IMG/VR virus record: IMGVR_UViG_3300032265_001122
Coordinates: 1 to 20,473 of that record
From: a virus
Reading direction: 5' to 3' (one strand)
DNA: 20,473 nt
Both the position numbers and the translations under genes were made by a program. The notes beneath the pieces were generated by a model that had not been told where the DNA came from, ran no database searches, and saw only the letters and a list, made by a program, of their open reading frames with translations. Below are positions 3,251 to 20,093 of the stretch, piece after piece; position 1 is the stretch's first letter, and each line of letters begins with the position of its first letter.

Positions 3251-3498
3251 ACGTCCCCGTTCAGTGGAACTCGATTCCTGAATGGCAGCGGCAGGTGGCA
3301 ACGGTGGTCAACCGCCTCATTTACCTGACGCAAACCAAAACGACCGTGACGAAGCTTCCTGCGGCGGCGGACATCGGCGCTGGCGCGCGGGCCTTTGTGA
3401 CGGATGCAACCGCCACAACGTTCGCTTCAGCTGTGGTTGGCGGTGGTTCAAACAATGTGCCGGTCTACTGCGACGGCACCATTTGGCGGATAGGATAA
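3247..3498 (+). CDS. Small tail-associated protein
   Basis: 83 residues. The ATG overlaps the tail-hub stop (ATGA), so translation is probably coupled. An N-terminal helix (WNSIPEWQRQVATVVNRLIYLTQ) leads into a C-terminal segment DIGAGARAFVTDATATTFASAVVGGGSNNVPVYCDGTIWRIG, a pattern I know as the C-terminal block of several phage tail or fibre proteins. The function is unknown; a structural role is inferred from position and from that block. Confidence 0.7.
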   Translation: MNVPVQWNSIPEWQRQVATVVNRLIYLTQTKTTVTKLPAAADIGAGARAFVTDATATTFASAVVGGGSNNVPVYCDGTIWRIG

Positions 3499-14411: not shown

Positions 14412-14599
14412 ACAACTGCGGTGTTGCCATGATCGAGCGTCTAGCGCTTACCGTTCGGGAATTTGCACCCCTTCCTGATGTCGTTGACGCGTGTCTCTTC
14501 CTGCTCGGGAAGGCGGGAATGGGTATGCTGAAAGGCCCGGTCAGCGATCAAGCGGAAACCCTGAAAGCGCTTGCCACACTGGCGGAGCGCAAGGAATGA
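14408..14599 (+). CDS. Small protein of unknown function
   Basis: 63 residues (MNNCGVAMIERLALTVREFAPLPDVVDACLFLLGKAGMGMLKGP...ALATLAERKE). It is amphipathic with no clear membrane segment. The ATG overlaps the previous stop, and its own stop overlaps the endolysin ATG. The tight coupling implies it is translated with the endolysin, but it has no recognised function. Confidence 0.55.
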   Translation: MNNCGVAMIERLALTVREFAPLPDVVDACLFLLGKAGMGMLKGPVSDQAETLKALATLAERKE

Positions 14600-15111
14600 C
14601 CGCGTTCGACACCGCCCTAGCGTTCGTCCTGAAAGAGGAGGGCGGATACGTCAACAACCCGCGCGACCCCGGCGGAGAAACTAACCTAGGCGTCACGCGG
14701 CGCACATGGCAGGCGTATACCGGCAAGATCGATGTGGATATGCACTCGCTCACCCCGGCGTCGGTGGGGCCACTCTACAAGGATGGATATTGGCGGACGA
14801 TGGGCTGCGATGGCCTGCCCCCGGCGCTGGCGCTGTGCGTGTTCGACTTTGGGGTGAACGCCGGTTGTTCGCGCGCTGTGCGGCTTCTGCAATCCATCGT
14901 GAACGCATTGCCTGACGGTTCGCCCGGCCCCGTGACGTTCAAGGCTGTCCAAGCCTTCGCTGCGGCTCACACCCTGCCCGAACTGGTCCGCCGCTATCAG
15001 CAAGGCCGCCGCGATTATTACCGCTTGCTGTCCACCTTTGCCACGTTCGGCAAAGGCTGGCTGGCGCGGTGTGACCGGATTGAAACTCAAGCCCTAAGGA
15101 TGGTGTCATGA
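14596..15111 (+). CDS. Endolysin, glycoside hydrolase family 108
   Basis: 171 residues. This is the peptidoglycan-cutting lysis enzyme. The N-terminal motif EEGGYVNNPRDPGGETNLGVT (residues 14-34) is the signature of GH108 muramidases, with the Glu before GGY (Glu15) as the catalytic residue. Then follow LYKDGYWRTMGCDGLPPALALCVFDFGVNAG and the C-terminal peptidoglycan-binding part (LLQSIVNALPDGSPGPVTFKAVQAF...RRDYYRLLS). There is no signal peptide, so a holin is needed for export. The ATG at 14596 overlaps the previous stop; a longer frame from 14491 would overlap the whole preceding gene. Confidence 0.9.
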   Translation: MTAFDTALAFVLKEEGGYVNNPRDPGGETNLGVTRRTWQAYTGKIDVDMHSLTPASVGPLYKDGYWRTMGCDGLPPALALCVFDFGVNAGCSRAVRLLQSIVNALPDGSPGPVTFKAVQAFAAAHTLPELVRRYQQGRRDYYRLLSTFATFGKGWLARCDRIETQALRMVS

Positions 15112-15272
15112 AAGTCATTGCATACGTCAAAGCCCGAATCGGGGAACATTCAACATGGGCAAGCATCGTGCTGGCCGTGACCGGCGGCGCTGCGTTGGCT
15201 TCGCCGTATAGCTGGCTTGCCATTGCGGCGGGTGTCATTGGCGCACTGGTTCCGACCGGGCGCGGCAAGTGA
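15108..15272 (+). CDS. Holin candidate, two membrane helices
   Basis: 54 residues, not in a long frame of its own but clearly supported. The ATG overlaps the endolysin stop (ATGA) with AAGGA 7 nt upstream. Two hydrophobic helices (about 17-33 and 36-50) are joined by a short SPYS turn, and the C-terminus is short and basic (TGRGK). This matches a small class II-type holin that releases the endolysin. Its position between endolysin and spanin genes supports this. Confidence 0.7.
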   Translation: MKVIAYVKARIGEHSTWASIVLAVTGGAALASPYSWLAIAAGVIGALVPTGRGK

Positions 15273-15793
15273 TCTGGCTTGCGTTTCGCCTATGGACACG
15301 GAAAGCGCTGGGAACCGCTCTGAGCGTGTTCCGGGCATACCCCCTGCAATGCGCCCTGATAACGTCCTTGTGCCTCTCTGCGTGGCTCTGGCGGGGTTGG
15401 CACGGTGAACACGCTGGCCGGGCTGCTGACATGGCCCGCGTTGCCGCTGCGCAGGTGGAAGCTGACCGTATCGCACAACAGGCGCTTGCCGAGACTGAGC
15501 GCCGCTACAGGATGAAAGCCAATGAAGCCGATGCACATTATAATGCGCAACTTGCTGATGCTCGTGATGCTACTGCCCGTTATATTGCTAGCCACCGGGT
15601 GCGCGCGGACGGTTCACATTCAACCGGCCAAGCCGTTGCCAGCGCCCGAGGTGGCAGTCCCGGCGTTCCTGAAACAGTGCCCAGCCCCGATTCCTTCGTG
15701 GCTGTCAGCCAGTCTGACGTGCAAGCCTGCGCCGATCTCTACGTCTATGCCCTAGCGGCGCACGATTGGGCGCTGTCGATTGCAAGGAAGTGA
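15269..15793 (+). CDS. Rz-like inner-membrane spanin
   Basis: 174 residues, GTG start overlapping the holin stop. There is one membrane helix (about 26-42), then a charged Ala/Glu-rich coiled coil (about 50-105), then a Pro/Ser-rich part and a C-terminal helix (QSDVQACADLYVYALAAHDWALSIARK), the usual Rz end. Spanins fuse the inner and outer membranes in the last step of lysis in Gram-negative hosts. It carries the Rz1 gene inside it in another frame, the classic Rz/Rz1 arrangement, which strengthens the call. Confidence 0.8.
   Translation: MIWLAFRLWTRKALGTALSVFRAYPLQCALITSLCLSAWLWRGWHGEHAGRAADMARVAAAQVEADRIAQQALAETERRYRMKANEADAHYNAQLADARDATARYIASHRVRADGSHSTGQAVASARGGSPGVPETVPSPDSFVAVSQSDVQACADLYVYALAAHDWALSIARK
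15522..15755 (+). CDS. Rz1-like outer-membrane spanin lipoprotein (nested)
   Basis: 77 residues, wholly inside the Rz-like gene in a different frame. The N-terminal hydrophobic signal (MRNLLMLVMLLPVILLATGC) ends in a lipobox ATGC at 24-27, with Cys27 as the lipid-modified residue. The mature part is short and Pro-rich (PAKPLPAPEVAVPAFLKQCPAPIPS), as in other Rz1 proteins. AGGA lies 8 nt before the ATG at 15522; starts at 15531 or 15543 are also possible. It is lipidated, anchored in the outer membrane and pairs with the Rz-like spanin. Confidence 0.8.
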   Translation: MKPMHIIMRNLLMLVMLLPVILLATGCARTVHIQPAKPLPAPEVAVPAFLKQCPAPIPSWLSASLTCKPAPISTSMP

Positions 15794-15794
15794 T

Positions 15795-15867
15795 GCTGCG
15801 GCGGCGCGTCGGTGCGCTATGCTGGCCAGCACTATCCGGGGCAACCTCCCGGTCAATCCGCCGCAGC
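15795..15867 (-). ncRNA. Possible small structured RNA, closed multi-branched fold
   Basis: On the minus strand, starting about 7 nt after a promoter -10 box, a 73-nt segment can fold into a branched structure. The ends pair over 10-11 bp (15858-15868 with 15794-15804, perfect inverted repeat TGCTGCGGCGG). Inside are hairpins CCGGG/CCCGG (15836-15840 with 15848-15852), the palindrome GCTGGCCAGC (15821-15830) and GCGC/GCGC (15804-15807 with 15814-15817). No T-run follows, so its 3' end is uncertain, and read-through would run antisense into the spanin genes. Structure and promoter are seen; that it is an RNA gene is inferred. Confidence 0.4.
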
Positions 15868-15902
15868 AACAGCACTATAGCACCTGTCGCCGGTCAGGTC
15901 AA
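15827..15902. repeat. Imperfect tandem duplication around the intergenic promoter
   Basis: CAGCACTAT occurs at 15827-15835 and 15870-15878, and CGGTCA/GGTCAA follows each copy (15850-15856 and 15891-15902). The two units are about 43 nt apart with a small indel. Only the second copy has a correctly spaced -35/-10 pair; in the first the spacer would be 14 nt. Confidence 0.45.
15874..15902 (-). promoter_or_regulatory. Strong sigma70-like promoter pointing into the lysis operon
   Basis: On the minus strand: -35 TTGACC (15897-15902), a spacer of exactly 17 nt, then an extended -10 TGC-TATAGT (TATAGT at 15874-15879). This is near-consensus. It lies downstream of the early operon end and reads toward lower coordinates, that is antisense to the spanin, holin and endolysin genes. 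The expected start is about 15867, where the structured segment begins. A tandem GGTCA-GGTCA lies on the -35 region (15892-15901, + strand) and could be an operator. Confidence 0.6.
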
Positions 15903-15963
15903 AGCGGGGTGGGTTTACAAACTGGCGAATAGGTGAAGCGTCAATTCATTTCCGGCGCATTTT

Positions 15964-16043
15964 CTGAACCAGTCCATCATTTGTCCTTCAAATGCTCGCC
16001 GCGCCACGAGGGTCGGCTAGTTCTAATTTTTGATCGACTGGTT
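15964..16043. repeat. Inverted repeat in the convergent gap
   Basis: CTGAACCAGTC (15964-15974) and GACTGGTTTAG (16033-16046 region, core GACTGGTT at 16036-16043) are inverted copies with one mismatch over 11 bp, 61 bp apart. They lie just after the early operon stop at 16052. It may be a weak terminator-like structure for that operon or a protein site. No T-run is attached to it. Confidence 0.35.
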
Positions 16044-16051
16044 TAGCGCCG

Positions 16052-16387
16052 TCACACACCCTCCCGCACGAGTTCGATGCGGTAGCCAAGCTTAGAGCAC
16101 TCGGCACGCAATTCCCGAGCCATGCACTCCGCGTGTGACTCAAGCATCTGCCGCTCGGGCAAGAAAGGAACAAGCCCCGCGAATGCATCTACCAACGGGT
16201 CCACAGGCTCCGGCTGCGTCTTGTGGATCAGGCGGGCTAGGGCGCGGAACGATGGCGCGTCGGGGTTGATTACGTAACCCGTGTATCCCGGTTTGCGCGG
16301 GTTGCAGGCTTCCGCCAATTCGCGCGCCCGATCAATGCACCACTGCGGGATGTCATCGCTCATTGTTGGTTCCTTTGGTTGGGTCAT
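16052..16387 (-). CDS. Small protein of unknown function after the methyltransferase
   Basis: 111 residues (MTQPKEPTMSDDIPQWCIDRARELAEACNPRKPGYTGYVINP...RQMLESHAECMARELRAECSKLGYRIELVREGV), soluble and mixed helical. The ATG at 16387 overlaps the methyltransferase stop (ATGA) and has AGGAGGGG about 8 nt upstream. An alternative start at 16363 has AAGGA. I do not recognise a family. It is the last gene of the minus-strand operon and probably cotranscribed with the methyltransferase. Confidence 0.65.
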   Translation of the reverse strand: MTQPKEPTMSDDIPQWCIDRARELAEACNPRKPGYTGYVINPDAPSFRALARLIHKTQPEPVDPLVDAFAGLVPFLPERQMLESHAECMARELRAECSKLGYRIELVREGV

Positions 16388-16944
16388 GCAAAAAGCCCCT
16401 CCTGACATTCGCCGGTCTGGCATTCGAGCCAGCGTTGATGCGCTTCTGTCACCGCGCCGGAGCCGGGAAACAGGTCCGTGAACTCGTCGCCCGGCTTCAT
16501 GTTGAGCCAGTCGAAAATCCACCACGTAACCGCCGCAGGCTTGGCTCCAGTGAAGCCCCGCCGCAGGGTGATGTTCTCGGCAATCGCGGGGGCCTCGATC
16601 CAATCGCGGACAGTGTTTTGCGTTGTCGGGATTTTGCGTCCGCCCCAAAGCAGGATGGGCTCCCATGCCCATGCGCGGGTCACGTTCTTCTTGAACGAGG
16701 CGAAAGGCTTAACCCACGCACCGACCCGGATGTCATCCGGGCACATATTGAGCATCGCCTTGAGCGACGGCGCGTGCAGGGACAGCGCCCAGCCATCGAA
16801 CTCCGCGCACATGCGGTCGATCAGCGCCTGATGGGTTTCCGGGCTGTCATAGTCATCTGCGTTGGGATGCAAGTGACCATAGAACTTCGCCGCGCATCCG
16901 AAATACGGCGGGTCAGCATAGGCAAAGCGCATCGCCTCACTCAC
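16384..16944 (-). CDS. DNA adenine or cytosine-N4 methyltransferase (permuted type)
   Basis: 186 residues, GTG start with a near-perfect AGGAGGA 8 nt upstream, which decides the start over the ATG at 16932. DPPY at 11-14 is the catalytic motif IV of amino-methyltransferases. DLFPGSG at 157-163 is the SAM-binding motif I. The order (catalytic motif before SAM motif) is the beta-class permuted layout. The middle (about 60-150) is the target-recognition part. There is no partner nuclease nearby, so it is an orphan enzyme. It probably marks phage DNA against host restriction or regulates phage genes. It lies beyond attP relative to the integrase. Confidence 0.85.
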   Translation of the reverse strand: MSEAMRFAYADPPYFGCAAKFYGHLHPNADDYDSPETHQALIDRMCAEFDGWALSLHAPSLKAMLNMCPDDIRVGAWVKPFASFKKNVTRAWAWEPILLWGGRKIPTTQNTVRDWIEAPAIAENITLRRGFTGAKPAAVTWWIFDWLNMKPGDEFTDLFPGSGAVTEAHQRWLECQTGECQEGLFA

Positions 16945-17045: not shown

Positions 17046-17275
17046 AGCGGGCCGCCAATCAGATCGAATAGCGTTCCCGTATCAGTTCCCGCAACGGGCG
17101 CAGAATCACGCTTTGTTCCGGTAACAGGCGCAGGCCAAAGCCGCGCAAATCCGCCAGTTTTGGCCGGGCGACATTCTTCGGGAGGCAGGGGCCGGAGGTT
17201 CGAATCCTCTTTCCCCGACCAGCTTTTGCCAACAATATCAAATATTTCCCCGTGCGGGGCGCAGTCGTTTATCAT
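17042..17275 (-). CDS. Open frame spanning attP, coupled at both ends (doubtful gene)
   Basis: 77 residues. The ATG overlaps the integrase stop (ATGA) and the stop overlaps the next GTG (GTGA), the same junctions real genes here have. However, the middle (SGKEDSNLRPLPPE) is simply the antisense of a tRNA 3' half and is a well-known artefact in translated databases. It may be just an open linker that keeps ribosomes moving through attP. Low confidence that a functional protein is made. Confidence 0.25.
   Translation of the reverse strand: MINDCAPHGEIFDIVGKSWSGKEDSNLRPLPPEECRPAKTGGFARLWPAPVTGTKRDSAPVAGTDTGTLFDLIGGPL
17071..17095 (+). repeat. Candidate integrase arm-type site, left
   Basis: GTTCC-N7-GTTCC unit (GTTCC at 17073 and 17085), 20 of 25 bases identical to the unit at 17279-17303 and in the same orientation. 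It lies 82 bp left of the attP core. The direct repeat is seen; the integrase-binding role is inferred from placement around the core. A half-site-like GTTCCGGTAAC lies at 17115-17125. Confidence 0.5.
17177..17221 (+). other. attP: attP core: 3' half of a tRNA-Pro(CGG)
   Basis: The segment reads as the anticodon loop to CCA end of a tRNA: loop TTCGGGA with anticodon CGG, T-arm GGAGG-TTCGAAT-CCTCT, acceptor strand TTCCCCG, discriminator A and CCA (17219-17221). The 5' half of a tRNA is absent to the left (the would-be anticodon stem does not pair). This is the usual form of an attP matching the 3' end of a host tRNA gene. The integrase gene ends about 50 bp away. The exact length of identity to the host cannot be seen here. 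Confidence 0.85.
17236..17248 (+). promoter_or_regulatory. Possible IHF-like site beside attP core
   Basis: TATCAA-ATAT-TTC matches the IHF consensus WATCAANNNNTTR except for the last base. It lies in a short AT-rich stretch 15 bp from the core, between core and the right arm repeat, where IHF bends DNA in lambda-type attP sites. Weak evidence on its own. Confidence 0.3.
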
Positions 17276-18345
17276 AGCGCGTTCCTGTATTGGTTCCCGT
17301 TACCGGCCTTACGCCGATCCACCGCCGCCATTGCCTCGCCCATAAAATCCGGGTGGTGGTGCGCGTAAATCTGGCTGGTCGTCTCCGGGTCTTGCCCGAG
17401 CCAACCGGCAATTTGCCAGATCGGCACCCCCTGTTGGGCCAGCCATGTCCCGCGCGTGTGGCGCAGCGTGTGCGGGGTTACGTCCGACAGCCCGGCCTTG
17501 CCCGCCGCCAGCGCAAAGCCCCGGTTCAGCTTCTGGATCGGCCTGCCGTCAATGTGCAGGACTGTTCCCGTATCGCTTGACCGGCGCTGCCATGCGTAGT
17601 GCAGGAACGTGCGCAGGCGGGCGGGCATCGGCAGCATAGGGCGGCGTTTTTTCGTCTGGCCGATACCGGGCCGGGCAAAGTTAATCCTCCCGCGCGCCAG
17701 ATCCACTTGCGGCCAGCGCAGGGACAGAATCGCCTCTTTCCGCGCCCCGGTGTAAAGCCCAATGAGGATGAACAACGGAAGGTATCCCCTGCCCCGCCCG
17801 GTTGACGTGCGTGCGGCGTTCAGCAGCTTGGCGGCCTCCGACACGGTGAGCCAACGCTCTTTCGGTGCCGGTTTCGGCGGCAAGGTAACGGGAACGGCGC
17901 GGGTTAAAACGCCTTCCCGGTGAATGTGGTTGATCGCCGCTGCCAGTGTGCCCAGCTCACGCCGGACGGTGCCGGGGGCCTTGTCCCTGTGGCGGGCGTA
18001 TTGATCGCACGACGCGGCATTAATCTCGGCAATCGTCTTGTCCTGCCAAAACGGCAGTAGCGCGGTTATCGCGTAACCTATGCGCGTCGGGTCTGCGGCT
18101 TTCGCGCCCGGCCCGGTGCCGTAAAGGTCAAGCGCCTCGCCCACCGTTATTGCATCCGGCTGGCGCGGGCCGCTGGCAGGCTTGTGACTTGCGCCGATGA
18201 ATTGCGCGAGGCATTTTTCAGCCTCGTGGCGGTCGCTTGTGCCCGTGCTGCGGACGCGCTTTTCTCCGCGCTCATACCATCGGATATAGTATGTGCCGCG
18301 CTCCGGGTGCCAGTATAGCTTAGGGCCGGTGTTCGGGCGTGGCAT
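17272..18345 (-). CDS. int: Tyrosine recombinase integrase
   Basis: 357 residues. It catalyses site-specific recombination between attP and a host tRNA gene. The N-terminal DNA-binding part (GPKLYWHPERGTYYIRWYERGEKRVRSTG) and core-binding part (about 65-150) precede the catalytic domain: Arg202 (TGARKEAI), Lys232/233, His292-x-x-Arg295 (HTLRH) and Tyr327 (TSQIYAHH). The usual LGH histidine position reads LGQ (Gln318), which is unusual. The gene ends about 50 bp from attP. Its 5' end overlaps the excisionase-like frame by 199 bp. GAGG is 10 nt before the ATG. Confidence 0.95.
   Translation of the reverse strand: MPRPNTGPKLYWHPERGTYYIRWYERGEKRVRSTGTSDRHEAEKCLAQFIGASHKPASGPRQPDAITVGEALDLYGTGPGAKAADPTRIGYAITALLPFWQDKTIAEINAASCDQYARHRDKAPGTVRRELGTLAAAINHIHREGVLTRAVPVTLPPKPAPKERWLTVSEAAKLLNAARTSTGRGRGYLPLFILIGLYTGARKEAILSLRWPQVDLARGRINFARPGIGQTKKRRPMLPMPARLRTFLHYAWQRRSSDTGTVLHIDGRPIQKLNRGFALAAGKAGLSDVTPHTLRHTRGTWLAQQGVPIWQIAGWLGQDPETTSQIYAHHHPDFMGEAMAAVDRRKAGNGNQYRNAL
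17279..17303 (+). repeat. Candidate integrase arm-type site, right
   Basis: GTTCC-N7-GTTCC unit (GTTCC at 17281 and 17293), direct copy of the unit at 17071-17095. It overlaps the 3' end of the integrase gene, as arm sites often do. The shared inner spacing of 12 nt supports a real binding site. Confidence 0.5.
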
Positions 18346-19700: not shown

Positions 19701-20093
19701 TCAAAATGGAATAAGGTCGTCATCCAGATCGGTCGCGAACCCGTTGCGCGGCCCGCTGTTGCTGGTGGAACCCTGCGCTTGCTGTGCGGGCTGGCTGTCG
19801 CTCTTGCCGCCCTGCAAAGCGATCTCACTGGCCTTGATGTTGAGCTGCGGTTTGCCTTCATATTCGCCAAGCTCAAACGAGCCTGAAACGGACACCGCCG
19901 CGCCCTTGGTCAGATATTGCGCCAGCGCCTCGCCGCGCTTGCCCCAGAGGCTTACGCGCCACCAGTTAGTGGTTTTCTCGCGCCCGTTCCGCTGGTCCAC
20001 GGCAACGGAAAAGCTGCAAACGCTGTCGCCGTTCTGCGTGTTGCGGAGTTCTGCGTCCCGGCCAAGTTTGCCGGCTATGGTGATGATTTGCAT
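19701..20093 (-). CDS. ssb: Single-stranded DNA-binding protein
   Basis: 130 residues. The N-terminal OB fold (about 1-95, MQIITIAGKLGRDAELRNTQNG...VDQRNGREKTTNWWRVSLWGKRGEALAQYLTKGAAVSVSGSFEL) is typical of SSB, followed by a Gln/Ser-rich linker and an acidic C-terminal tip (DLDDDLIPF) that binds partner proteins. It coats single-stranded DNA during phage replication and recombination. The ATG overlaps the exonuclease stop (TAATG), so the two are coupled. Confidence 0.95.
   Translation of the reverse strand: MQIITIAGKLGRDAELRNTQNGDSVCSFSVAVDQRNGREKTTNWWRVSLWGKRGEALAQYLTKGAAVSVSGSFELGEYEGKPQLNIKASEIALQGGKSDSQPAQQAQGSTSNSGPRNGFATDLDDDLIPF

Follow-up and report, generated by a model that had tools for sequence, protein, structure and literature searches.

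The 258 non-coding bases that separate two converging operons in this phage record are best read as a transcript-end region carrying 3′-end structures, for termination or stability, of both operons, a reading to which we give about an even chance. The window, meaning the whole stretch of DNA analysed, is a record of 20,473 bases from a virus of bacteria. Its late genes are on the plus strand and end in a lysis cassette, while genes for an integrase, a protein with a DPPY motif and a 103-aa protein converge on them from the minus strand. The gap is bounded by the stop codons at 15791-15793 (plus) and 16052-16054 (minus) and contains, from left to right, an element 1, a middle stem and an element 2. 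The stems, their positions and the enrichment in inverted repeats are computed from the sequence. The features are as follows.

14599-15111, plus strand: GH108 lysozyme (Pfam PF05838)
15108-15272, plus strand: small 54-aa protein of the lysis cassette
15269-15793, plus strand: gene for an Rz-like inner spanin that closes the late operon, with TGA at 15791-15793 as its stop
15522-15755, plus strand: Rz1-like outer spanin, in another frame within Rz (PHROG 456, E 3.4e-3)
15794-15868: element 1, a closed branched structure with an 11-bp perfect stem, TGCTGCGGCGG/CCGCCGCAGCA, and a 53-nt interior
15832-15856, minus strand: imperfect second promoter-like motif inside element 1, TTGACC, 14 nt, GATAGT, then GCTG
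15874-15902, minus strand: promoter-like site, TTGACC (15902-15897), 17 nt, TGC, TATAGT (15879-15874)
15882-15934, plus strand: middle stem, ACCTGT.CGCCGGT/ACTGGCG.ATAGGT, which holds the -35 hexamer of the promoter-like site and most of its spacer
15953-16051: element 2, with a 6-bp outer stem CGGCGC/GCGCCG, 16-nt arms at 15964-15979 and 16031-16046 (14 of 16 paired) and a branched interior
16052-16363, minus strand: gene for the 103-aa protein, last of the converging operon, no assigned function, stop TGA at 16054-16052
16384-16944, minus strand: conserved 186-aa protein with a DPPY motif, 68% identical to its homologue in contig L082
17176-17221, plus strand: likely attP core, a 46-nt sequence that nearly equals the tRNA-Pro(CGG) 3′ end and finishes in CCA
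17272-18345, minus strand: tyrosine integrase (PF00589, E 5e-17; phrog_1, E 1e-52)

The naming of the last late gene as an Rz-like spanin is based on PHROG 312, 1327 and 2466 (E 3e-4 to 6e-3), and homologues of it are present in the related records L084, L088, L059 and L164; the Rz1-like product, judged by its sequence, has the lipobox LATGC and is proline-rich. On the opposing side the 103-aa gene is the sole frame with a positive coding score, has GGA upstream of its ATG and has a weak homologue in Pseudanabaena phage Pan3. Neither Pfam nor PHROG gives a match for the 186-aa protein, which by its DPPY motif resembles phage DNA methylases. The putative attP core is beside the integrase and matches replicons of Sphingomonas, Ruegeria, Tritonibacter and Azospirillum, which makes an alphaproteobacterial host probable. 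The original prediction put element 1 at the end of the integrated prophage; it is near that end rather than at it, since 1.3 kb containing minus-strand genes separates it from the attP core.

Element 1 is the structure that had been noticed first, and its 11-bp perfect inverted repeat is there as described, with 15794-15804 pairing with 15858-15868 across a loop of 53 nt. The three hairpins that were said to fill it hold for the minus strand, while on the plus strand there are two main ones. Its fold is -39.9 kcal/mol (z -2.8) on the minus strand and -38.2 kcal/mol (z -1.8) on the plus strand. By itself the stem is close to what chance would give in this record: a shuffled version has on average 0.60 perfect repeats of 11 bp or more with a loop of at most 80, and 48% of the shuffles contain such a repeat. 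When all viral contigs were searched, the 10-bp arms at a distance of 40-65 nt were found in 40 others, where the sequences are unlike element 1 and the enclosed segments all have plus-strand folding energies of about -27 to -56 kcal/mol; the energy of element 1, -38 to -40 kcal/mol, is thus ordinary for such a stem. Open reading frames over element 1 score as non-coding and have no PHROG match, and the idea of a coding remnant was set aside.

What is beyond chance is the placement of element 1, together with a second long repeat in the wider gap. The first base of its stem is the first base past the Rz stop codon. A perfect stem of at least 11 bp at an offset of 0-2 from a stop is found for just 1 of the record's 1070 stop triplets, all frames counted, and the stop-anchored stem was equalled in none of 400 shuffles of the 3′ region, keeping in mind that the P values on the gap structures are post hoc. 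These figures bear directly on the doubtful, though not negligible, explanation that a GC-rich repeat and a promoter-like sequence have by chance come together in a short non-coding gap and do nothing there. The expected frequency of the stem, the recurrence of its arms in other contigs with segments folding as well, and the lack of the layout in most relatives are all as that explanation would have it; the exact placement by the stop codon is not, nor are the independent second repeat by the opposing stop and the comparable layout of L164.

The second repeat belongs to element 2, a mirror element that is statistically the stronger of the two and that went unmentioned when the gap was described as having one structured element. 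With its 51-nt loop it is the only 14/16 repeat with a loop of at most 80 in the 20.5 kb, its quality is reached in 0.2% of gap shuffles, and element 2 has z-scores of -4.45 (plus strand) and -3.54 (minus strand). The last base of its outer helix, 16051, adjoins the opposing stop at 16052-16054, just as 15794 adjoins the stop of Rz, which is the arrangement to be looked for in convergent 3′-end structures. As one stem starts directly after the Rz stop and its mirror adjoins the opposing stop, the two flanking stop codons account for the structure better than the promoter-like site does. Over the entire gap, the best repeat is reached by none of 300 shuffles, whereas the same test on 17 coding tiles gives a wide spread of P values, three of them at 0.02-0.03; the whole-gap fold is only moderately better than that of shuffles (z -2.7 plus, -2.1 minus).

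As to which strand would matter, the 57 nt around the middle stem fold at -23.9 kcal/mol on the plus versus -15.1 kcal/mol on the minus strand, and where the closing helices of element 2 and of the middle stem have a wobble position, it is G-U in plus-strand RNA and A-C in minus-strand RNA. This pattern hints at a plus-strand RNA under constraint, weakly, because it was a fold of the plus strand on which the helices were chosen, and because for element 1 the minus strand gives the slightly better fold. A far more ambitious proposal, which we consider very improbable, would make the entire gap a single structured RNA of the plus strand, about 260 nt long and composed of three closed domains. 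This RNA would be released from the late mRNA at its 3′ end and have a function of its own (for instance as a sponge or a lysis timing device), while in the lysogen the minus-strand promoter inside it would direct an opposing transcript.

With the preferred reading, each message entering the gap would fold into a closed branched structure starting at its own stop codon, and this structure would help RNA polymerase to stop, shield the 3′ end from exonucleases, or both, so that late and early or lysogenic transcripts would be kept from running deep into each other. That the structures act as RNA, with a preference for the plus strand and in termination or 3′ protection, is what we infer. No terminator-like site or U-tract was found at 15794-16051 on either strand, and the loops, of 53 and 51 nt and branched, are not those of the short-loop GC-rich hairpin of an intrinsic terminator, with strong GC-richness confined to the closing stem of element 1. 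Elements 1 and 2 are not canonical intrinsic terminators, and because there is no U-tract the stopping would probably be via Rho or by collision. Plus-strand sequence 3′ of Rz, at about 15820-15899, has more C than G, which would be compatible with Rho loading.

Convergent 3′-end structures are a known kind of feature, and the candidate in this gap is a real but modest one. The terminators and 3′-end hairpins of convergent operons, including bidirectional intrinsic terminators, likewise have inverted repeats between converging units and next to stop codons. In contrast to these, the stems of the gap are long-range, with loops of about 50 nt that are branched, and lack U-tracts, and each side has a stem of its own, with a further one in the middle, instead of one shared short hairpin. 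Should paired, stop-anchored, branched stems without U-tracts prove to end transcripts, GC-rich phages would have a form of terminator that escapes standard scans; the convergent gaps that end phage lysis cassettes are rarely examined. Rfam gave no match at the gathering score and a permissive scan gave one chance match far below the cut-off; ARAGORN found no tRNA or tmRNA in the window.

The promoter that had been the starting point of the original prediction is present as claimed, a near-consensus minus-strand site TTGACC-17-TGC-TATAGT with the TGn extension. It scores 10/12, a level that is not rare by itself, being expected 0.68 times per shuffled record and found twice; with the extension the expectation is 0.08 and the site at 15902-15874 is the one found. 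It is the best in the record. The start that its -10 would specify, at about 15867 on the minus strand, is within 1 nt of the first base of the stem, again as had been stated. From here comes the reading that the minus-strand promoter at 15902-15874 directs synthesis of a structured RNA of about 75 nt, or of a longer antisense transcript into Rz/Rz1, that would be expressed in the lysogen and either damp the lysis genes or exclude superinfecting relatives. The rarity of the site, the closeness of the start to the stem and the slightly better minus-strand fold of element 1 (z -2.8 against -1.8) all accord with it, and antisense RNAs of prophages to lytic genes are known, STnc6030 and OOP of BTP1 among them (PMC7067206). 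Working in the other direction are the lack of a promoter match when the equivalent gaps of L148, L158, L152 and L164 were scanned in the same way, the preference of element 2 and the middle stem for the plus strand, and the fact that such an RNA does not predict anchoring of the stem on the Rz stop. There is also no homologue of the element in the sequences searched and no minus-strand ORF with coding signal over it. No terminator follows the minus-strand element, so a discrete small RNA is not defined. The claimed small structured or antisense RNA therefore keeps the best promoter-like site of the record and a fold that is real in silico; it loses ground to a promoter without match in relatives, to the missing terminator and to stop codons that explain the stem better. 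As neither promoter nor RNA is conserved, the minus-strand small-RNA idea is unsupported; we regard it as unlikely, and the case for a new regulatory RNA from the gap is weak.

The comparison with established antisense RNAs of phages is instructive. Lambda OOP RNA, antisense to the 3′ end of cII, and the OOP of BTP1 (PMC7067206) are, like the RNA predicted here, short, of similar size, and made from a strong promoter opposite the 3′ end of a phage gene. An RNA of that type is expected to be a short transcript that overlaps the 3′ end of a gene and has its own promoter and terminator; the gap has the promoter-like site and, on the minus strand after 15794, no terminator. It further differs in that the promoter is not conserved, in its location at the end of the lysis cassette instead of at cII, and in being a prediction from sequence. 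STnc6030 of prophage BTP1, which is 786 nt, is an experimentally shown RNA that runs antisense to the tailspike gene and to a gene for DNA injection (PMC7067206). The proposed minus-strand RNA would share with it the opposition to lytic genes and expression in the lysogen, though it is itself a prediction from sequence.

Within and beside element 1 there is also a direct repetition. The 9-mer CAGCACTAT and the 7-mer CCGGTCA recur in register 43 and 41 nt apart within 15827-15902, which reads as an imperfect second promoter-like copy within the stem element; its spacer, as judged from the motif at 15832-15856, is too short for a sigma-70 promoter. Such a repetition is what would be expected if the gap functioned as DNA and not as RNA, either through sites in tandem that bind a protein or as the ends of a small insertion, and its score is reached by 0.15% of gap shuffles. 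Yet 6 of 157 tiles of equal size from the record (about 4%) reach an equal score and the gapped self-alignment of the gap is not significant (46% of shuffles reach it), and as a tandem operator the repeat was rated weak. A mobile element was rejected as neither inverted repeat has a target-site duplication around it, and no copies are present elsewhere; a role at the DNA level is accordingly a slim prospect. In L088, at 7944 on the minus strand, the upstream region of a minus-strand ORF has TATAGTGCTAGCC, like the -10 region of the window, and this promoter form may be common to these phages.

Returning to transcript-end structures, the remaining evidence is from relatives. These were sought via Rz, the lysozyme, the DPPY protein, the exonuclease and the 103-aa protein, with L059, L082-L100 and L144 being useful, and the contigs of close relatives found through the exonuclease-like gene were read (L164 is the contig of L086, L158 that of L088 and L152 that of L096; Pan3 is L146). 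L164, whose neighbouring exonuclease-like gene is 80% identical, shows an 8-9 bp closed stem that starts inside the Rz stop codon and has a 48-nt loop (P 0.005), and in the same convergent gap, at 3426-3458, a 10-bp perfect repeat TTTCTGACAT/ATGTCAGAAA with a 13-nt loop. The sequence of these stems is unrelated to that of the stems in the window. Comparable stems are absent at the corresponding place in L158, L152 and Pan3; L158 has a weak hairpin alone after Rz, and in L152 the converging genes overlap. The gap cannot be compared in L084 and L059, since there the exonuclease gene directly follows Rz, which is not the last late gene. The stop-anchored layout is thus common to at least one relative, L164, and not general, and with one relative supporting it the comparison with homologues is thin. 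A sequence homologue of the element was not found in the 19 records L082-L100, the phage collection or the viral contigs, nor was the 18-mer on the promoter side matched in viral contigs by exact or gapped patterns. DNA similarity of the gap to phages and plasmids amounts to chance matches, the piece of tRNA-Pro near the integrase being the one addition. A 12-nt palindrome, TGCTGGCCAGCA, common to L089 and L096, was set aside as a coincidence, being apparently intragenic there, judging by sequence.

A minor observation concerns the history of the record. The single-stranded DNA-binding protein encoded at 19701-20093 of the window is 97% identical to that encoded at 9315-9704 of L084; as Rz is 55% identical between the two and the late gene order differs, recent module exchange is suggested.
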